IMG/VR virus record: IMGVR_UViG_3300010883_014546
Location: 1-20,646 of that record
DNA from: a virus
Length of the DNA stretch: 20,646 nt
Reading direction: 5' to 3' (one strand)
Both the position numbers and the translations under genes were made by a program. Under the pieces are notes generated by a model that made no database searches, was not told the origin of the DNA, and saw only the letters and a list, made by a program, of their open reading frames with translations. Positions 6,952 to 20,043 of the stretch are shown piece by piece; the first letter of the stretch is position 1, and each line of letters opens with the position of its first letter.

Positions 6952-8127
6952 TTATTTACCATTAGCAATCTCATTAAGTTCCCTTAGCTTGCCATCAGGT
7001 TGTCCTAATCCACCGATAACACTAAAAATATTTAACGTAGGTTTATCTCCACTGTAAACTCCGCCATGAACCGTGCTCCCAGACTTGAGCATCCTGTTAA
7101 GTTGATCTAAGGCTTGGTCTATGTGACTTTGGGGAAGGTTGTCTAGTACTTCTATCCCACCAATCATTATGACTCCAGCTGTATTTCCGGTGCTTACATC
7201 AATCCCGCTAGACAATAAATTGCTTCTAAGATTTTCCCTAACTGTTCGTGAAATCTGAACAGGATCGTGCCAGTCCTTCACCGGCGAAGCGCCGAATAGG
7301 ATTAATCCAGAATTTAGTATCCCTTTATAGTCATTCTTGTCGAAAGAGGTATAGCTACTGTCTTTCGCTGAGGTCAGATTAAATAAGTGAAATAATCCAG
7401 CCAAGTTGGAGTTTGCCACGTTCCAGAATTTGGAAACTGCCACACTTGGATACAGCGAGACTACTTTTTCGTTATCTAGCAGGATCAAGGGGGAAACTAT
7501 CCCTTCCCTCACTAGGCTGTATACGTTTCTTAAAGTGGTTGCCGCGTTATTGTTTACTTTTGCTCCTTCAGATTTTTTGGGCAGCGTTAAGATTACTCCC
7601 ACTTGCTTTTCTTTGGTTTTCACCAGTTCTTGAACTTCCTTAGCTAAATTAACTAATGGGGTTACCATTCCTGACCCAGTACCGCCTCCTGCACCAGCGC
7701 AAATGAAAATCCTATCGAAAGATTCACCGAAAGAATATCTCATGAAATCGATGACGTCTTCTTTGTTTTCTTTGAGCTTTTGCGCAGCGACCGCTGGATC
7801 TTTACCGGCTCCACCGCCCTCTCCAACGCATAGCTTTTGTTTTAAGGATAAAGAATTTAAATCAGAACTAGCGGTGTTAATTGCGGCTACTCTATTATAG
7901 CCAAGCTTCGAAAAGGTTTCCGCCAGCCTTGACCCCCCTTGCCCTGCCCCCAAGAAACAGAATTTAAAAGAAACATCTACATCGTCCTCTACATCATGGA
8001 CAAGGTAATCTTTTACCTCCCCGTTATCCTCCGGGACAAGAAGATCTTCAGGCATGGAAATATCTGACTCTCCGTAAAAAGACTTAATTTGTTCATTGTT
8101 TTCGTTTTCGTTTTTTTGCTCGCTCAT
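6952..8127 (-). CDS. FtsZ/tubulin-superfamily GTPase
   Basis: A 391-residue protein. Residues 1-50 are an acidic extension. The GTPase domain then shows FCFLGAGQGGSR (phosphate loop T1, 56-67), GEGGGAGKDP (T3-like, 102-111), the hallmark tubulin/FtsZ signature GGGTGSG (147-153) and an Asn/Ala-rich T6-like segment (NNNAATTLRNVY). Near 261-271, SFDKNDYKGIL matches the catalytic T7 loop with DxxD Asp263 and Asp266 kept, so self-stimulated GTP hydrolysis upon polymerisation is expected. The remainder fits an FtsZ-type activation domain (GVIMIGGIEVLDNLPQ). The C-terminus lacks an obvious FtsZ tail peptide. Known phage relatives such as PhuZ of jumbo Pseudomonas phages make filaments that position the phage nucleus or deliver capsids; whether this one does so is unknown. 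An AAGGA site lies 10 nt before the ATG, and the gene follows the portal gene by 32 bp. Confidence 0.88.
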   Translation of the reverse strand: MSEQKNENENNEQIKSFYGESDISMPEDLLVPEDNGEVKDYLVHDVEDDVDVSFKFCFLGAGQGGSRLAETFSKLGYNRVAAINTASSDLNSLSLKQKLCVGEGGGAGKDPAVAAQKLKENKEDVIDFMRYSFGESFDRIFICAGAGGGTGSGMVTPLVNLAKEVQELVKTKEKQVGVILTLPKKSEGAKVNNNAATTLRNVYSLVREGIVSPLILLDNEKVVSLYPSVAVSKFWNVANSNLAGLFHLFNLTSAKDSSYTSFDKNDYKGILNSGLILFGASPVKDWHDPVQISRTVRENLRSNLLSSGIDVSTGNTAGVIMIGGIEVLDNLPQSHIDQALDQLNRMLKSGSTVHGGVYSGDKPTLNIFSVIGGLGQPDGKLRELNEIANGK

Positions 8128-10227: not shown

Positions 10228-12057
10228 TTACACCATTCTGGGTGTAAAGGTCGCGGCGGCATCATCTAATTTGTAATTCATCATATCGAAGTAACACTTT
10301 ACACCCCAATTGGCTAAAAGTAAACCAGTATAATTATCTTTTCTTGCCCTACCCGCGCTGGTATTCCGCTTTAAATGCTGCGGGAGATCAAACGTCTGTG
10401 TTCCTCTGGAGGTCGTCTTGACTTCGACAAGAGCGCACTGTTTCTTAACTTGATATACTAAATTATCTTGAGTTTCAATGAATTCTCCTAAATTTTCTTC
10501 ACAGGCATAGTCTAGATTGACCTTAGACATGCTTTGCTTGTCGAATTCCGAACCGTTTGCCGTGGTTCTGGACGCAAACCATACTTTTTTATAATCTATA
10601 TTTGCCTGAAGCAGTTCGTTTGCTTTCCTTATCCAGTCGCTTGAAAAAACTTGATTGAACACGATTCGGCGACCTTCCTTATTGTACGTGGACTTAAGAT
10701 CTCTGACTTCTTTCAGATAATCCACGCCTTCTTTATTAGAGTCGAAGTCGATAACTTTCAAATTAATTCTATTGTCTATAAATAACTTGGAGTGGTTTGC
10801 AGCCTCTAGAAACATGTCTGATCCGGCGTTATCGATACATATTAACTCTGGGTCAAAGTTGTCTAATACGTAATTAAGATATTTTACATGATTATTCAAA
10901 CTGCCTAAACCAGCGTAATTGTGCACAAGAGTTGAAGATTCCTTTTCTTCGTCTAGCTCCATTACAGAAATGGCAAAATAATCCGCGCTCGGACTATCGC
11001 TCATGTTGGGGTCAATGCCTATCACGTATTTTCTAGACGACTTGCCCCTTACAAGAGTGGTTGGTTCTTCCCCGTCCGGAACAGTGCATTGATGCATCTT
11101 GATCGCGCTGAAATAACTATCACTTCCGTCCGTAAATTGAGCGCAATACTCTCTCTGAAACGAAGCGTTAGAATACCCGCCGTCTTGAGCTGCCTCGATT
11201 ATTGTATGGTCAATCATGTGCTTTGGCAGGGATTCGTAACTCAATTGGGACACGAAATAAGAGGAGTCCTCCTTTTCTTCTTTGTAAATATGATTAACCC
11301 AGTCTTTGTATGTCTTATACAAGTTTTCAAAAGTATAGCTTGCCGAGGATAGCGCTATCATTTTACTGTTATTTTCAAAGACCATTCTGTCCTCCTCTTT
11401 CATGAAGCCTTTCTCTATGAGCCCGTCTTCTGTTTCACGTACCTCTATTCTCTCCTTCATGTCTTGAGGGGCAACCAAAAAAGGCATGAGAACCGTATTA
11501 ATTAAATCTTCCGGCAAAAGCAAAAACTCATCCAGTAAGAGCACGTTAGCTCGGAAACCGCGAATTTTTTCTCCGTTAAGAGGAATGGCCGTAATAGTCC
11601 CTCCATTTATCTGCCATTGAAATTGATCGTTCCTCTTAGACTTCGCCCCGAAACACTGCATCAAAAGCTCCGCGCCCTCAGACTCTACTATCTTTTCTAA
11701 GCTTTCGAATATGAATCTAGCTGTTCTGAACGTTGGTCCCGCTACTAATATCTTGGTGCCGGGGTTAAATATGCAATGAAGAAAGCAGAATACTGAAGCA
11801 ATAAAAGTCTTACCGCAACCACGACCCCATACGCACATTGAGAAATTTTTTTCCATTAACCCTTTTAGGGTAATTTCTTGATATGGAGCCAACTTAATCC
11901 CCGAGATTAGCTCGGTCGTAAGACCCAAGTTACCGTTTAAGAATTTAGCTAACGTTAACTTAGCTTCGCTGTCAGAAAGGTTCCCCTTAATTTTCAGCAG
12001 CTCTTCATTAATGCTTTCGTCTCTCTTCGTTTTATATTTGTCTGGACAGTACCACAT
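10228..12057 (-). CDS. Terminase large subunit (TerL)
   Basis: A 609-residue DNA-packaging motor. The ATPase half shows Walker A GRGCGKT (78-84) preceded by the adenine-side YQ segment (LAPYQ, 56-60), Walker B VLLLDE (172-177) and a coupling motif SSAS (237-240). The C-terminal half is the RNase H-like headful nuclease. YVIGIDP (344-350) supplies the first metal-binding Asp (349), ELICIDN (404-410) the second (Asp409), and further acidic residues follow. Length and order match the terminase large subunits of T4-like and other phages. It packages the genome into the prohead via the portal encoded immediately downstream (46-bp gap). The start ATG is 7 nt after the upstream stop and has no Shine-Dalgarno site, implying coupled translation. 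Confidence 0.95.
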   Translation of the reverse strand: MWYCPDKYKTKRDESINEELLKIKGNLSDSEAKLTLAKFLNGNLGLTTELISGIKLAPYQEITLKGLMEKNFSMCVWGRGCGKTFIASVFCFLHCIFNPGTKILVAGPTFRTARFIFESLEKIVESEGAELLMQCFGAKSKRNDQFQWQINGGTITAIPLNGEKIRGFRANVLLLDEFLLLPEDLINTVLMPFLVAPQDMKERIEVRETEDGLIEKGFMKEEDRMVFENNSKMIALSSASYTFENLYKTYKDWVNHIYKEEKEDSSYFVSQLSYESLPKHMIDHTIIEAAQDGGYSNASFQREYCAQFTDGSDSYFSAIKMHQCTVPDGEEPTTLVRGKSSRKYVIGIDPNMSDSPSADYFAISVMELDEEKESSTLVHNYAGLGSLNNHVKYLNYVLDNFDPELICIDNAGSDMFLEAANHSKLFIDNRINLKVIDFDSNKEGVDYLKEVRDLKSTYNKEGRRIVFNQVFSSDWIRKANELLQANIDYKKVWFASRTTANGSEFDKQSMSKVNLDYACEENLGEFIETQDNLVYQVKKQCALVEVKTTSRGTQTFDLPQHLKRNTSAGRARKDNYTGLLLANWGVKCYFDMMNYKLDDAAATFTPRMV

Positions 12058-12064
12058 TTCGTTA

Positions 12065-12505
12065 TTATTTATTAATTAATTTTCCTTTATACTTAGGACC
12101 AGAAACAAAAGGTATCCCCCTAAAGAGAAGCAGGTGATCTACATGATCCATTTCGGAATATTTTTCGTTTTCATTTTCTATGCAAAATCTATATTGATCT
12201 CCAAACATTTTCCACTTCATTCTGTATAGGGTCGTATTGGGAATTGGTTTAGGGTTTAATTCTATATCGCAACTCTGATTAATGTAAGAAATGTATCCAA
12301 ACGCGAATCCCGAGTTAACCTTGTTAATACATGGATGACTATCTTCAAGTGGGAAATACTCGAAACTAACGTCTGTAACATGTAAGTCTCCGCATAGGTA
12401 TGATATGTTTTGAGATGTCGGATCATTCACTTGGACCCATTTATCTACCGGATGTTTACCTAAGTCTTCTGTGCAGGGCTCATATGTAACATAATATTTT
12501 TTCAT
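12065..12505 (-). CDS. Hypothetical protein
   Basis: A 146-residue protein of no recognised family, starting MKKYYVTYEPCTEDLGKHP. It is rich in aromatic residues and Cys (Tyr, Phe, Trp, with five Cys), with predicted alternating strands (KWVQVNDPTSQ, VSFEYFPLED, TLYRMKWKMFGDQYRFCIE) and no membrane span or signal peptide. It resembles a compact beta-rich domain. The start is 6 nt after the stop of the nuclease gene and the stop is 7 nt before TerL, so it belongs to the same coupled transcript. It could be a packaging accessory or an intracellular regulator; nothing in the sequence decides between them. Confidence 0.55.
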   Translation of the reverse strand: MKKYYVTYEPCTEDLGKHPVDKWVQVNDPTSQNISYLCGDLHVTDVSFEYFPLEDSHPCINKVNSGFAFGYISYINQSCDIELNPKPIPNTTLYRMKWKMFGDQYRFCIENENEKYSEMDHVDHLLLFRGIPFVSGPKYKGKLINK

Positions 12506-12511
12506 TGTCGT

Positions 12512-13471
12512 TTATAATATTTTTAAATCATAAGCCAATTGCAAATCTATCTTGACGTAGGAACAGCCGCTAAAAAATATTTTTTCGATTACTCTTTTTG
12601 ACTCTTTTCTCCCTTTAACAAATAAGAATTGTACGTGGGGGTATTTCTGGATCAGTTGCCTTACGTTATGGAAAATATACTCCGGGGTAACTTTTATCTT
12701 CTTCGATATGTAGGGTAAGTATTTGAAGCTCATGGCGTTACTTAGAGTGTCTTCTACGAGTATAATTAAATTCGCCTCCATCTTCTTCGCTCTGATAATC
12801 TCATTTTCAAATCTATCGAAATTTCTCACGCTCAGTGTTGATATGAAATCTGCCAAAGATTTTCTTTCTATGTAACAGTTGCACGTTAACCTTGGTTCGC
12901 TAAACGTATAATCCCCGACAGGTAACGTCATGGACTGCGTACGATAATCATCCCACTTTAAAGGCAGTTGTTCTCTTGTGTCTATATGTATGGAGTATTG
13001 GGGCTTTTCGTATTCTTTCCCCTCTGTGATTTCCGTGGGAAATTGGTATTTATTTTTAAACCCAATCCTTTCGCAATAGGAATAATAATTTTTAAATATT
13101 CCATGAAGATATTGAATGGGTGGAGAAAGTATGCTTCTCAACTCTACCTGAGAAGGGGTGTAAACTAAATTTTTCTTTTCTTTTCTTTTTGTCAAAAGCT
13201 CCCCGCAATAGTTTACGGCCTCTTCAGGAGCTCTTTCTTTTAGCCAAAGGCGTAGGTTTGTGCGAGAGTTAAAGTCTGTGGAGAAATATTGTTCTTTTGT
13301 TTTGTATTTAATGATTTCTTTATCGTGAAGATCGTGTCTCGGGTAATATTTTTGATAATATCCTACCACCCTCAGCTTATGAACTTTAATATGGGCGTGA
13401 AGTTGCCTTTCCGTCTCGAAGGGTTTCTTGCAGTTTTGACAAATCACTTTTTTTTCTTCTTGCTCTGTCAT
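12512..13471 (-). CDS. C2H2 zinc finger fused to ERCC4/XPF-type nuclease
   Basis: A 319-residue protein with two recognisable parts. Residues 11-31 form a C2H2 zinc finger: Cys11, Cys14, His27 and His31 in CxxC-x12-HxxxH spacing (CQNCKKPF...HAHIKVH). A helical middle region (about 35-150) has a dense aromatic/basic stretch (YYQKYYPRHDLHDKEI). Residues about 158-300 form an ERCC4 nuclease core: IHIDTREQLP (Asp164, Arg166, Glu167), LPVGDY (Gly186, Asp187), then IERKSLADFI (Glu202, Arg203, Lys204, Asp208). This GD...ERKxxxD array is the XPF/Mus81 catalytic signature. The protein should cut branched or specific DNA under metal dependence. Its 4-bp overlap with the upstream gene and its position before TerL suggest a role in recombination intermediates or packaging. 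A homing-type function is the alternative. Confidence 0.85.
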   Translation of the reverse strand: MTEQEEKKVICQNCKKPFETERQLHAHIKVHKLRVVGYYQKYYPRHDLHDKEIIKYKTKEQYFSTDFNSRTNLRLWLKERAPEEAVNYCGELLTKRKEKKNLVYTPSQVELRSILSPPIQYLHGIFKNYYSYCERIGFKNKYQFPTEITEGKEYEKPQYSIHIDTREQLPLKWDDYRTQSMTLPVGDYTFSEPRLTCNCYIERKSLADFISTLSVRNFDRFENEIIRAKKMEANLIILVEDTLSNAMSFKYLPYISKKIKVTPEYIFHNVRQLIQKYPHVQFLFVKGRKESKRVIEKIFFSGCSYVKIDLQLAYDLKIL

Positions 13472-14544
13472 ATTTCATCTTCGTCTAAACCTAAGATTCT
13501 CGCTTTTATTTCATCCATAGACGACAGATTTTTCGCTTCGTCCTTAACGCTCTTTCTTCTTATCTCGGAGAGCTTGATGAGTTTCACCCTGCTTTCTTCG
13601 TCCTTCCAAACTTTGACTAAATTTAATATGCTTGCGTTTTCTTTAATTTGATTCTTGAGACGATCACTTCTCTTTTCTTTTAGATCGTTCAAAAGCTTCT
13701 GCTGCCTGTTAACAGATTGGTTGTATTCTGTTTCCGTCTTCCCTATAGCTTCGACTAGGGACATTGACGCCCTTCCGTTAGCGTCTTCCACTATGTCGTC
13801 AAGTAGTCCAGTCAAGTGCTCCTTTCTCCTTTGTATACTGGCTGAGATTACTACCTCAGAAGAAAGAACTATATATTGATCGACCTCTTCTTGAGTTAAA
13901 TCTGGCTTATCGTGAGTATACCTTACGAAGCTTGACTCAAATAGTTCCCTATCTGTTGTCGTAACATAAGTATTAATTTGATAACAAAATCTATAAGTAT
14001 TTATGTAATTGATTAAAGACTCAATATTCTTTTGTATCTTGGATGTGATTTTGTTTTTGTTTATGGATCCATTAGTGTATTTGTTTACCTTGAATAAGGT
14101 CTTGTCGAACGTCTTAGGCGGTTTGTATTTTTCCGTAGGAACTTCGTCTGGGGATTCGAAGGCGGTTGTGGGCTCTAGTTCTTTTATGAAATCGCTAACT
14201 ACTCGCGCCTCTTGGTTTAAATTACTTAAGCTTGGGTCTTTAAACAATATCCTTGCCATTTCCACGGAACTCATAAATTCAAGATTATTCTTTATGAAAA
14301 TTTCGTCTTCTTCGGTGAGGTCCATTTTTGTTTTCGCTTTGTATTCGTGAGCCGCCCTAGCCTTTATGCTCCTAGACGCCAAGAAGGCCTTAACAGCTTT
14401 CCCCTCTTTGGTTCTTCCGTCTAAGTCTTGATTGGGGAAAGCGAGCCTTATAAGCTCCAATAGCGAAGGCGGGGAATCTGGTCTGGAATTCCACTCTTCT
14501 AGAACTATCTTTTCTTGATCTTCTGTTAAGTTGAAGCTACTCAT
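13468..14544 (-). CDS. Protein with duplicated N-terminal helical unit (possible small terminase)
   Basis: A 358-residue, almost entirely helical protein. Two similar segments lie at the N-terminus: residues 6-60 (LTEDQEKIVLEEW ... LLELIRLAFP ... AVKAFLASRS) and 76-122 (LTEEDEIFIKNNL ... VEMARILFKDP ... VVSDFIKELE). Each has an acidic helix, a short turn and a second helix, which looks like a tandem HTH-like pair. A Pro/Lys linker follows (KYKPPKTFDKTLFKVNKY), then helical regions, and Lys/Glu-rich coiled-coil from about 260 to 345 (LLNDLKEKRSDRLKNQI). Helical DNA-binding domain plus coiled coil is the layout of many small terminase subunits, and TerL lies three genes downstream. This is only a candidate assignment. 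It overlaps the SET gene by 8 bp and the nuclease gene by 4 bp. Confidence 0.6.
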   Translation of the reverse strand: MSSFNLTEDQEKIVLEEWNSRPDSPPSLLELIRLAFPNQDLDGRTKEGKAVKAFLASRSIKARAAHEYKAKTKMDLTEEDEIFIKNNLEFMSSVEMARILFKDPSLSNLNQEARVVSDFIKELEPTTAFESPDEVPTEKYKPPKTFDKTLFKVNKYTNGSINKNKITSKIQKNIESLINYINTYRFCYQINTYVTTTDRELFESSFVRYTHDKPDLTQEEVDQYIVLSSEVVISASIQRRKEHLTGLLDDIVEDANGRASMSLVEAIGKTETEYNQSVNRQQKLLNDLKEKRSDRLKNQIKENASILNLVKVWKDEESRVKLIKLSEIRRKSVKDEAKNLSSMDEIKARILGLDEDEI

Positions 14545-15250
14545 CTTTTGTATTTTCTAAATCGGCAGGCTTCAAGTCTTCCGGCGTACTTGCCGCTGTC
14601 ACTTCTTGCTGCTCTTGACTCTCTTTGATTCTTTTGATAAACGGGACCCAGTATGAGTGTCCATAATTTACGTAGATTTCCTCACCCGCTTTAATGTCTC
14701 TTATGGATAATATATAAATCAAGGCTTCTGTTGGGTGTGACCAATAAGTGGAATTGTACCCCTGCGAAATATCTAATTCGTTCTCGGCTTTTAAGTCGTC
14801 TCCAGACTTGGGCTGCTTTTCTCGCGTCTCTCGTTCTTTCTCGTACTCTTCACCGCTTCTCTCAAGGGGGCCTCGCTTATCGTTTACGAATCCCCCAAGG
14901 CCCATTTCTTCATCAGTTAACGAGGGCTGGCAGTCTATCATCTTCCCCTCCCTCCCAGTCGTTTTAGACGATTGTTTTCGCCAGCTGATCGCGTATAGCG
15001 CCAAGGGTCTATCAAACCCCAAGCTCATTGTGTAGGCGTATTTTTCCCCTAACCTTTTCTGAGACGCTTCTGAGAGGGAAACTGAGCCACTAGCACCGTC
15101 TTGGCCTTCTAAATCAAGAAGTTCGCCTTTGTACTCGCAGATAGGCTTACCAGACAATATGTCTACCCCCGCAAATAAACCTACCCCTGCTCCCGGGACT
15201 TTGGAAACGCCTAGGTACAATTTGTCAGCTATGTTGTCTATAATTTTCAT
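14537..15250 (-). CDS. SET-domain protein (putative lysine methyltransferase)
   Basis: A 237-residue protein. The first 50 residues carry the SET N-motif: GVSKVPGAGVGLFAGVDI then an ICEYKGELLD strand (the G.G.FA ... I.EY.GE pattern). Further motifs are GLGGFVNDKRGP (113-124, the position of the Asn-containing cofactor motif, here with ND instead of NHS) and DIKAGEEIYVNYGHSYW (192-208, the G-E-E-[I/L]-x-x-x-Y pattern with the catalytic-type Tyr203). A charged insertion rich in Glu/Lys lies near 125-155. SET enzymes transfer methyl groups from SAM to protein lysines; the substrate here is unknown. The last 25 residues are acidic and disordered. The start overlaps the sigma-factor stop as ATGA, and the gene overlaps the next by 8 bp. 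Motif evidence is good; activity is not shown. Confidence 0.78.
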   Translation of the reverse strand: MKIIDNIADKLYLGVSKVPGAGVGLFAGVDILSGKPICEYKGELLDLEGQDGASGSVSLSEASQKRLGEKYAYTMSLGFDRPLALYAISWRKQSSKTTGREGKMIDCQPSLTDEEMGLGGFVNDKRGPLERSGEEYEKERETREKQPKSGDDLKAENELDISQGYNSTYWSHPTEALIYILSIRDIKAGEEIYVNYGHSYWVPFIKRIKESQEQQEVTAASTPEDLKPADLENTKDE

Positions 15251-15945
15251 AATAATTCAATTCCCCCTTTCTCAATGCATTCTTTTGCTTTTCTCAATAT
15301 GCTCTTTTTTAGATTTTTAATCTGCTTGTAGCCGGGCTTCCTGTTTTTTTCGTTTGACTTTAACCCTAGCTTTTCCGCCACATCGTCTTCTTCTAAATTT
15401 TTTATGTAAAGCCCCTCGTAAACTATCCATTCATTTGGCTTTAAAATCTGATTCATTTTAAAATGCATTAAATTAACATGCTTCTCGGTGTCTCCCGAGT
15501 TTACGGACTCTATCGAATCTGTTTCAAAAACATGATCTTCCAGTGAGAGGGGGATCTTGATGCTGTAAGCTGATTTCTTGGTTCTTTCCCACTTCGCATA
15601 GAGAGGGCAATCGTCACATTGTGTTTCGTATATTTTGCAAGAAGCTTCCCCTTCTCCTGCTTCGCATTTTAAACATGGCCTAGCGAAATTTCCATAATGG
15701 TTTCTTATTAGGTTTTTAATTTGATTAGATATAATCCTATTTAACCAAGGGCCTAGAGGTTTCTCCGTATCATACAGTGCCCATTTTTCATAAATGTGCG
15801 CCCTAATGATTTGAGAAACGTCATCATAGTCTATCCAGTTTAAGGACGTCAGGCTCCATTTTTTACTTCTCTTTCGTATCTCCTGATTGATGAAATCGTA
15901 ACTCTCTTCAAACGTTGGCTTTTTTTTACGGGTGCTTTTGTTCAT
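15247..15945 (-). CDS. Divergent sigma factor with central Cys cluster
   Basis: A 232-residue sigma-70-family-like protein, thought to redirect host RNA polymerase to phage promoters. Residues about 10-85 resemble region 2: a helix (FEESYDFINQEIRKRS), then WIDYDDVSQIIRAHIYEKW and PWLNRIISNQIKNLIRNHYG, the polymerase-binding and -10-reading helices. Residues about 158-225 resemble region 4, an HTH: NEWIVYEGLY, EEDDVAEKLGLKS, then a basic recognition-like helix (GYKQIKNLKKSILRKAKE). Between them are five Cys, at 91, 94, 103, 110 and 113 (CLKC and CDDC pairs), suggesting a bound zinc that is not usual in sigma factors. It is shorter than host sigmas and compares with small phage sigmas such as T4 gp55. 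Its stop overlaps the SET-domain start as ATGA. Confidence 0.75.
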   Translation of the reverse strand: MNKSTRKKKPTFEESYDFINQEIRKRSKKWSLTSLNWIDYDDVSQIIRAHIYEKWALYDTEKPLGPWLNRIISNQIKNLIRNHYGNFARPCLKCEAGEGEASCKIYETQCDDCPLYAKWERTKKSAYSIKIPLSLEDHVFETDSIESVNSGDTEKHVNLMHFKMNQILKPNEWIVYEGLYIKNLEEDDVAEKLGLKSNEKNRKPGYKQIKNLKKSILRKAKECIEKGGIELL

Positions 15946-17517: not shown

Positions 17518-18153
17518 TTATTTAAATAATCCCTCATCATTCATCAACTGATCTATAATTGAGAAATTACTTTCCGAAGAGGACGAATAGTAACCTATTT
17601 TTATATTATTCTTTATGAAGAAGTCGCTATTGAAAGTGTCCCTATACATAGCGAAAGTCACAAACTCTTTCGAATGCTCTTTCTTGCAAATTTTAATTAT
17701 TTTTTTGTAAAACGAACCCTCGGTGCCCTTGTAAGCTATAGACGATAGGCAAAATTTCGTTTCCATCCCTAACAGCTCGCTTATCCTAAAGACGCTATAA
17801 GCTGCTATATGTGAGATATTCTCGGACGGTAGCTTCACTATCTCTTTTACAACCGGGAACACTCTCTCAAAATTGGGAGACTCTTTGTATTCTGACGCGA
17901 TTATTTTAAGTAGATTTCTTCTCCAGTTACCCACGGATACAACTAAATCACAAATTTTCTTACTACTTGCGCGCTCTTCTATGGGTACCCTGAATACGAT
18001 TTTCTTTCCATTTTTTTTCAGTACAGTTTTGTTCACCCAAGATTTATCGTTGTAGTATGTGTCATCAGCAAAAACTACTTTATCCACCTTATTGACAACC
18101 TCTAAGTAGCTTTTGAAAGGAAAGAGGTTTGGTTGTAAAACTGTTATTTTCAT
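17518..18153 (-). CDS. WbqC-family protein
   Basis: A 211-residue protein. Family features are the N-terminal strand-loop VLQPNLFPFKSYLEVVN (5-21), the acidic DDTYYNDKSWVNKTVLK (30-46) and the C-terminal SIIDQLMNDEG (about 198-208), which together match the WbqC-like family pattern (QPNYFP-like start, DD ... W.N core, SI.D.L.N end). WbqC proteins occur in O-antigen and other surface polysaccharide clusters, where they are thought to help make or attach unusual sugars; the precise reaction is poorly known. Its ATG overlaps the stop of the oxygenase-like gene by 4 bp, so it belongs to the sugar module. Confidence 0.85.
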   Translation of the reverse strand: MKITVLQPNLFPFKSYLEVVNKVDKVVFADDTYYNDKSWVNKTVLKKNGKKIVFRVPIEERASSKKICDLVVSVGNWRRNLLKIIASEYKESPNFERVFPVVKEIVKLPSENISHIAAYSVFRISELLGMETKFCLSSIAYKGTEGSFYKKIIKICKKEHSKEFVTFAMYRDTFNSDFFIKNNIKIGYYSSSSESNFSIIDQLMNDEGLFK

Positions 18154-19115
18154 TTTGCGTCAAAGAAAAACATGTGGAACAATCTTGAATTTTGCTTTTG
18201 GTCTCCGAAGTATTCGGAAGCGGCATGGATTAATTTCGCATCCCAGATTACAAGCCTGTTATAGACATTACCAACGACATCGACCACCTCTAAATCTGTC
18301 TTATCGTAAAAGTTATTCTTAAAAATTTCGAAAGATAAGTCGTCCTTGCTTCGGCCTATTCTTTCAGAATCCTCGTCTGTCGGAGAATGTAATAGCCCCG
18401 TACTCTTGCTCTTAAAGAAGGTGGTCCCACATGAGACTGGGGCATTTGGGGTAAGGAAAACAACGGCTGCATAAGTCTGTGCGTCGACGTGATACACCAA
18501 TGAGTCTTCAGCGGTACAAAACTGGAACACCCCGTTCGCCCCTTGATCTTCCCAGCTCGTGATTTCCATTCGTAAAAGAGTCTCTAGAGTCTCCTTGATC
18601 CCGTCAGGAATATACTTGGACTCGGTTCTTTGCCCCTTGTGGTATTCGAGGTGAGGCGCGTATCCACGCGATAGAGCAAAATCTCTTATCTCGTCTGGGT
18701 TTTCGTAAAAGTCGTCAATGACTATCAGTTCTGGGTTTAACTTTTTTGAAATTTTGAAATCGACCGTTTTCTTTTCTTCTGTCAGAGACCACGCCTCCGC
18801 CCCTTCAATGTTGACAGCCTTTGTCCATGCTTTCTTTTTCAAAACCTCCAAGCATAGATCTTTTGCGTCTTTGAATTTTCGCGGAATAGATATAGAAAAT
18901 CCCGAATTTAAGAAGTCTTTATTTTCGTAATGCTCCTGCACATCTTTCCGCTCTTTCCCGTATACGCCCACAAAGGACTCCTTACCTTTCGATAGTCTTA
19001 CGTTGTCCACTTTGCTTGAGGCGGAAGCGCACCACCCAACAATATTAAGTTCGTCGTCCTGACCGTTCACGGAATCAACGTGAAGCTTGACGTCTTCTAT
19101 CAATGTTTCATGCAT
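18150..19115 (-). CDS. Beta-sandwich plus 2OG-Fe(II) oxygenase-like (DUF6445-type) fusion
   Basis: A 321-residue protein with two parts. Residues about 10-80 form a strand-rich domain with GWCASASSKVDNVRL, VYGKERKDVQEHYE and NSGFSISIP. This resembles the small beta-sandwich found at the N-terminus of some polysaccharide-pathway transferases (pattern yG..R.DV ... SGF). Residues about 128-321 resemble DUF6445, a double-stranded beta-helix oxygenase relative: VIDDFYENPDEIRDFA, then YHVDAQ giving a His209-x-Asp211 iron pair, followed by PVSCGTTFFKSKSTG, with distal His297 (LIHAAS) and Arg311 (SRLFHMF) for 2-oxoglutarate. The facial triad is thus complete by eye. Hydroxylation of a sugar or protein substrate is inferred. 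The gene overlaps rmlB by 8 bp and the WbqC gene by 4 bp. Confidence 0.72.
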   Translation of the reverse strand: MHETLIEDVKLHVDSVNGQDDELNIVGWCASASSKVDNVRLSKGKESFVGVYGKERKDVQEHYENKDFLNSGFSISIPRKFKDAKDLCLEVLKKKAWTKAVNIEGAEAWSLTEEKKTVDFKISKKLNPELIVIDDFYENPDEIRDFALSRGYAPHLEYHKGQRTESKYIPDGIKETLETLLRMEITSWEDQGANGVFQFCTAEDSLVYHVDAQTYAAVVFLTPNAPVSCGTTFFKSKSTGLLHSPTDEDSERIGRSKDDLSFEIFKNNFYDKTDLEVVDVVGNVYNRLVIWDAKLIHAASEYFGDQKQNSRLFHMFFFDAK

Positions 19116-20043
19116 AATATTTTACTGTTTTCTTGAGTCCTTGCTTTAGGTTTATTTTTGATTTCCATTTTAGCTCTTTTCTTATTTTTGAACTGTCTAT
19201 AGCGTACCTGAAGTCGTGACCGGGGCGGTCTTTTACAAACGAAATATATTCATTAGGGTCCTTTTTTAATATTTTACAAAGCTCAGTAATTATTTCTAAA
19301 TTAGTTTTCTCGCAATCGGAACCCACTAAGTAAGTTTCTCCGATTTTACCCTTGGTGAGAACTTTCCATACCCCAGAGCAATGGTCGTCTACGTAGATCC
19401 AATCTCTGACCTGATCTCCTTTTCCGTATACAGGGATAGGCTGGTCATCTAACAAAGAGTTAATCACCACGGGTATAAATTTTTCTCCATGTTGATTTGG
19501 GCCATAGTTATTGCAACAGTTGGAGATTGTCGCTTCGATTCCATGCGTATTAACGTACGCCTTTACCAAGAAGTCTGAAGCGGCTTTTGTCGCTGAGTAA
19601 GGGTTTTTTGGGTCGTAAGGGGTGTCTTCAGAGAATCTCTCTCCGTCTTTTGCGACACCGTAAACTTCATCCGTGGAAACGTGATGGAACCTAGTTTTGA
19701 ATTTTCTTGCGGCCTCCAACAATGCATGAGTGCCGATGATATTAGAATCGACGAACTCTTTCGACCCCTTGATAGAATTATCGACATGAGACTCGGCGGC
19801 AAAATGAACCACATGAGTAATGTCATGCTTGTAAAAAGTATCATAGGTCTTGTCGTAATCTGATAAATTATATTTTTCCAAAAGGTACTTCGGATGTTTG
19901 CGAAAACTACTCGTGTTATCCAAGGACCCCGCATAGGACAAGCGGTCAACATTGATAAGTTTATTGATTCGTTTTTTGTTTATAACGTACTCTATGAAAT
20001 TAGAGCCGATAAATCCGCATCCTCCTGTTACTAGTAAGTTCAT
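19108..20043 (-). CDS. rmlB: dTDP-glucose 4,6-dehydratase
   Basis: A 311-residue short-chain-dehydrogenase-type enzyme converting dTDP-glucose to dTDP-4-keto-6-deoxyglucose, the entry step to deoxy sugars. NAD binds at GGCGFIGS (7-14). Catalytic Thr124-Asp125-Glu126 lie in VSTDEVYG, and the Tyr149-xxx-Lys153 pair in NPYSATKAAS. A substrate-binding NNYGPNQHGEKFIP stretch, RDWIYVDDHC and DRPGHDFRY are all family marks. At 311 residues it is somewhat shorter than typical RmlB (about 340-360), mainly at the C-terminus, but no key residue is lost. Only RmlB is seen in the window; RmlA, RmlC and RmlD are absent here, so the phage may rely on host enzymes or make another 6-deoxy sugar. It overlaps the upstream gene as ATGA. 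Confidence 0.93.
   Translation of the reverse strand: MNLLVTGGCGFIGSNFIEYVINKKRINKLINVDRLSYAGSLDNTSSFRKHPKYLLEKYNLSDYDKTYDTFYKHDITHVVHFAAESHVDNSIKGSKEFVDSNIIGTHALLEAARKFKTRFHHVSTDEVYGVAKDGERFSEDTPYDPKNPYSATKAASDFLVKAYVNTHGIEATISNCCNNYGPNQHGEKFIPVVINSLLDDQPIPVYGKGDQVRDWIYVDDHCSGVWKVLTKGKIGETYLVGSDCEKTNLEIITELCKILKKDPNEYISFVKDRPGHDFRYAIDSSKIRKELKWKSKINLKQGLKKTVKYYA

Follow-up and report, generated by a model that had tools for sequence, protein, structure and literature searches.

A SET-domain protein gene optionally inserted into a conserved packaging operon of uncultured tailed phages

The window, i.e., the whole stretch of DNA that was analysed, is itself a virus record of 20,646 bases. Since profile searches found in it a terminase, a cement protein, PhoH and a tubulin-like gene, it is regarded as a piece of a tailed phage. 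The gene considered here encodes a SET-domain protein and lies between the genes for a sigma-70-like factor and for a conserved protein, g358 (Table 1). The sigma assignment is real but weak (25.7 bits for Sigma70_r2 at a cut-off of 24). The public phage collection contained no phage with a recognisable homologue of this sigma, and the TerL matches listed from it were about 23% identical. Of the 12 gene junctions between 20561 and 10228, six are overlaps of 4 or 8 bp, which makes stop-start coupling a habit of this operon.

Table 1. Positions of the SET gene, its motifs and its neighbours in the window
Feature	Position	Strand	Basis
Sigma-70-like factor, upstream neighbour of SET	15247..15945	(-)	Sigma70_r2, 1e-5
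4-bp ATGA overlap, sigma stop/SET start	15247..15250	(-)	ORF positions
SET-domain protein, 237 aa	14537..15250	(-)	ORF, Pfam, AlphaFold2 model, structure match
SAM-binding loop PGAGVGLF (predicted), residues 19-26	15173..15196	(-)	G22 and G24 invariant in 45 sequences
EYKGE motif, residues 39-43	15122..15136	(-)	G42 invariant, Y40 almost invariant in 45 sequences
Insert 1, about residues 47-70, exceeds bacterial SETs in length	15041..15112	(-)	Alignment
IDCQP...GLGGFVND, residues 105-124	14879..14938	(-)	N123 and D124 invariant in 45 sequences
Insert 2, about residues 127-163, helical in model, bacterial SETs without it	14762..14872	(-)	Alignment and model
GEEIYVNYGHSYW, residues 189-201, including conserved SET Tyr196	14648..14686	(-)	E191, Y196, Y200 and W201 invariant in 45 sequences
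g358, conserved, downstream neighbour, 8-bp overlap with SET	13468..14544	(-)	ORFs, relatives
ERCC4-type nuclease, N-terminal C2H2-like zinc finger	12512..13471	(-)	Profile searches
Terminase large subunit (TerL), query for fetching relatives	10228..12057	(-)	Profile search

Some further features of the neighbourhood may be mentioned. The nuclease gene adjoins the terminase gene or stands close before it in the relatives, and the small gene between the two in the window (12065-12505, minus strand) was recognised only in the closest relatives (L002, L013, L014, and L015). The tubulin/FtsZ-like gene (6952-8127, minus strand) follows the portal gene, as it does in many relatives, and a cytoskeletal or nucleus-type phage biology is possible. 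Upstream of PhoH there is a glycan-related cassette (17518-20043, minus strand) with WbqC-like, DUF6445 and sugar-nucleotide dehydratase genes.

The SET reading frame is intact and begins with ATG. Its product matches the Pfam SET profile (PF00856) with 35.1 bits (E 1.9e-8; curated cut-off 22.4), the profile being covered whole (positions 1-105 of 105) and spread across residues 22-197. SET is the sole Pfam domain detected in the protein, and the PHROGs profile search gave no significant SET family (best E 0.069). When IMG/VR was searched with the protein, 16 contigs were found, and all of them keep the frame and the motifs. A comparison with a 75% identical homologue (L003) yielded a dN/dS of 0.18, which indicates purifying selection. 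Because of this value and of the kept frame and motifs, the reading frame is not a chance one.

AlphaFold2, run on residues 1–210 with 44 aligned sequences (one row, from a public phage record, was left out), returned a confident SET fold with a pLDDT of 91.8 and a pTM of 0.87; with a shallower alignment of nine phage sequences the model was poor (pLDDT 56). The Foldseek matches shown for the model are SET structures, including PR-type SET, with TM-scores of only 0.4–0.5 on query length, for which the inserts of the phage protein are probably responsible. The top match in VIA-align is human SET8 (Z 12.7, rmsd 2.8, 134 residues). The original prediction of a SET protein at this place, for which a structure prediction had been proposed as a check, is thus borne out by the reading frame, the full-length Pfam match and the fold. 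Profile, fold and motifs together support the assignment as a SET methyltransferase, the activity being a predicted one.

It had also been pointed out that the protein keeps the N-motif, has ND in place of the usual NH, and ends in the Tyr motif. Indeed, N123, D124, and Tyr196 are invariant in the 45 aligned sequences (15 from phages and 30 others), and so is the YxxYW end. In eukaryotic SET proteins an N-H stands where N123-D124 is found here. From this difference it could be argued that the phage protein has no catalytic activity and that its SET fold serves for binding or as a decoy. We consider this improbable, since the ND, both glycines of the loop and Tyr196 are invariant in phage and bacterial sequences alike, which suggests a maintained active site. 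For the same reason the ND is not the peculiarity for which it was taken: every one of the aligned phage and bacterial relatives has it. Judged by its sequence, the protein belongs to a bacterial “ND” subtype, which is seen in many Bacteroidota.

Among cellular proteins, the closest matches found were small SET proteins from Bacteroidota, and 96 of 198 sampled Bacteroidota genomes contain a SET gene, so that the description of SET proteins as mostly eukaryotic does not fit this phylum. In a review SET genes are treated as native to bacteria (PMC3980110). In the SET tree (FastTree, midpoint rooting) the phage SETs from the sigma/g358 slot form one group with a support of 0.945, and the SET from the most distant relative (L098) is their weakly supported sister (0.794). 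A bacterial origin of the phage SET is likely, although the tree has no eukaryotic outgroup. In the alignments the two inserts and a conserved N-terminal MKIIDN extension appear as features of the phage proteins, and they may have a role in substrate recognition. The first eight residues (MKIIDNIA; 15227-15250, minus strand) are strongly conserved in the clade described below, and bacterial SETs are without them.

With TerL as the query, 80 loci from this phage group were collected. The gene order conserved in these relatives is PhoH, zinc ribbon, sigma, g358, ERCC4 nuclease, TerL, and portal, often with the tubulin-like gene, and some of them have SET in addition, in the slot between sigma and g358. 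In a four-gene tree of 62 contigs the SET in this slot is restricted to one clade with a support of 1.0. Within the clade 15 of the 18 contigs carry SET, a sample that was partly selected for SET; among the evaluable members that were fetched by TerL, five have the gene and three do not. The three without it (L017, L019, and L020) are nested in the clade and show a clean absence with no space for a remnant. In the SET-less contigs, all of them fragments, although some are as long as 136 and 144 kb, no second SET was found elsewhere. One phage (L007) has two tandem, intact and diverged copies (L007:7001-7624 and L007:7611-8258), both with the key motifs. The two copies branch apart from each other in the phage SET tree, and the duplication may be old, the tree support being weak. 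In L098, the TerL of which is 39% identical, SET lies between the nuclease and TerL genes, and sigma joins g358. The operon is therefore conserved, and SET is an optional addition to it.

These relatives bear directly on the proposal that the SET protein is functionally linked to sigma, i.e., that it methylates the phage sigma or the host RNA polymerase and in this way redirects or switches transcription during infection. The proposal was derived from the ATGA overlap, which is indeed present in the window, and a 4-bp overlap joins sigma and SET in 12 of the 14 distinct phages with SET in the slot (short gaps are found in L007 and L097). The overlap is, however, not specific for SET but an ordinary junction of this operon. 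In the relatives without SET, sigma joins g358 directly at 46 junctions, at 28 of them via the same 4-bp overlap. Moreover, the three SET-less clade members have kept the same sigma, and in L098 the SET gene is found by TerL. Thus, the bond between sigma and SET is neither specific for SET nor kept everywhere, and, SET being optional in a conserved operon, its position beside sigma says little about the methylation target. Where members of the clade have SET, the gene is always in this slot, which could nevertheless reflect a functional tie to the operon.

The rates of evolution point in the same direction. Between the window and L003 sigma is 94% conserved and SET 75%. In the same comparison dN/dS ranges from 0.024 (sigma) through 0.029 (nuclease), 0.037 (g358), and 0.039 (portal protein) to 0.044 (TerL), as compared with the 0.18 of SET, which is the fastest among the genes measured; the zinc ribbon is nearly as fast (0.125). 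The fast evolution of SET could alternatively be due to relaxed constraint. In sigma and seven neighbouring proteins there is no lysine that is conserved together with SET and absent in every clade member without SET, which is a weak test with only three such members and of low power, since none of the eight residue types tested tracks the presence of SET either. Taken together, a sigma or RNA polymerase target appears very unlikely.

As a second alternative, the methylated protein could belong to the virion or the packaging machinery (portal, capsid, terminase, or nuclease), and its methylation could, for example, tune assembly or protect the particle. We rank a structural target of this kind second, after a host target, because the operon is one for packaging and head formation and because the L098 SET sits between nuclease and TerL; a SET gene of another uncultured phage, LR756502, is located 3.6 kb from a terminase-like gene. 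On the other hand, portal and TerL are highly conserved and present without SET in most relatives, and none of their lysines tracks SET in the weak test mentioned above, so that this explanation is rather unlikely too, if less so than the one involving sigma.

We therefore favour a third explanation, namely that the gene product is an active accessory protein-lysine methyltransferase, which from its sequence and model we consider quite probable. The protein would be a SAM-dependent protein-lysine N-methyltransferase of the SET fold, encoded by an accessory gene that, in one clade of the phage group, occupies the place between sigma and g358 in the packaging operon. Its expression would follow that of the operon, and its translation would rely on the stop-start coupling that many of the operon's junctions show. 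SAM would be bound via the GxG loop and the region of N123-D124, and a lysine presented near Tyr196 would become methylated. The target would more probably be a host protein (of the nucleoid, of transcription, of translation, or of defence) than the highly conserved phage sigma. It is the evolutionary pattern that leads us to infer this class of target: SET has been gained, lost, duplicated, and relocated, and it evolves faster than most of its neighbours. Taken alone, the assignment to a host protein is tentative.

In an uncultured lineage of tailed phages, a predicted lysine methyltransferase of the bacterial type has thus been carried along, has diverged, and in some members has been duplicated or lost. 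To our knowledge, protein-lysine methylation by phages is largely unexplored, and a substrate, if found, would therefore be new biology. The SET genes themselves have precedents, being already on record for phages and bacteria.

In the main text of a jumbo-phage survey (PMC7824862) none of the “SET” occurrences found is a SET domain, and in the available part of a crassvirus paper (PMC10172136) no passage on a SET protein was found behind the text match “SET domain.” ORF62 of Stenotrophomonas phage Ps15 is a SET-domain protein (PMC9025141), also from a tailed phage, the likeness being one of annotation. SET proteins are furthermore annotated in uncultured Caudovirales (A0A6J5L8Y2 and others) and in many giant viruses. 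The two best Caudovirales entries likewise represent a tailed-phage SET domain, but in structural alignments they are only 14–16% identical to that of the window. The 642-kb phage LR756502 has an unannotated SET (L136:7935-8378), which is of the N-D type like that of the window but has only 147 amino acids, lacks the inserts, and falls in the SET tree beside a Bacteroidota protein and not with the clade of the window. Its first residues, MRYLKTFESF, are similar to those of several proteins encoded nearby, a likeness that perhaps reflects a shared targeting signal.

Among viruses of eukaryotes, chlorella virus PBCV-1 encodes a small SET protein, vSET (A612L), to which the profile match is weak (1n3j, E 0.0004). 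PBCV-1 infects eukaryotic algae, and the substrate of vSET is histone H3. The best match among solved structures, human SET8/KMT5A, is about 20% identical to the phage SET; it is the methyltransferase for Lys20 of histone H4 and has N-H rather than N-D. The small SET proteins of Bacteroidota (about 135–160 amino acids; e.g., from Agriterribacter humi, L119), for which we know of no functional test, share with the phage protein the common SET core, the N-D, the YxxYW end, and the invariant glycines of the loop, whereas the two inserts and the N-terminal MKIIDN extension are found only on the phage side of this comparison.
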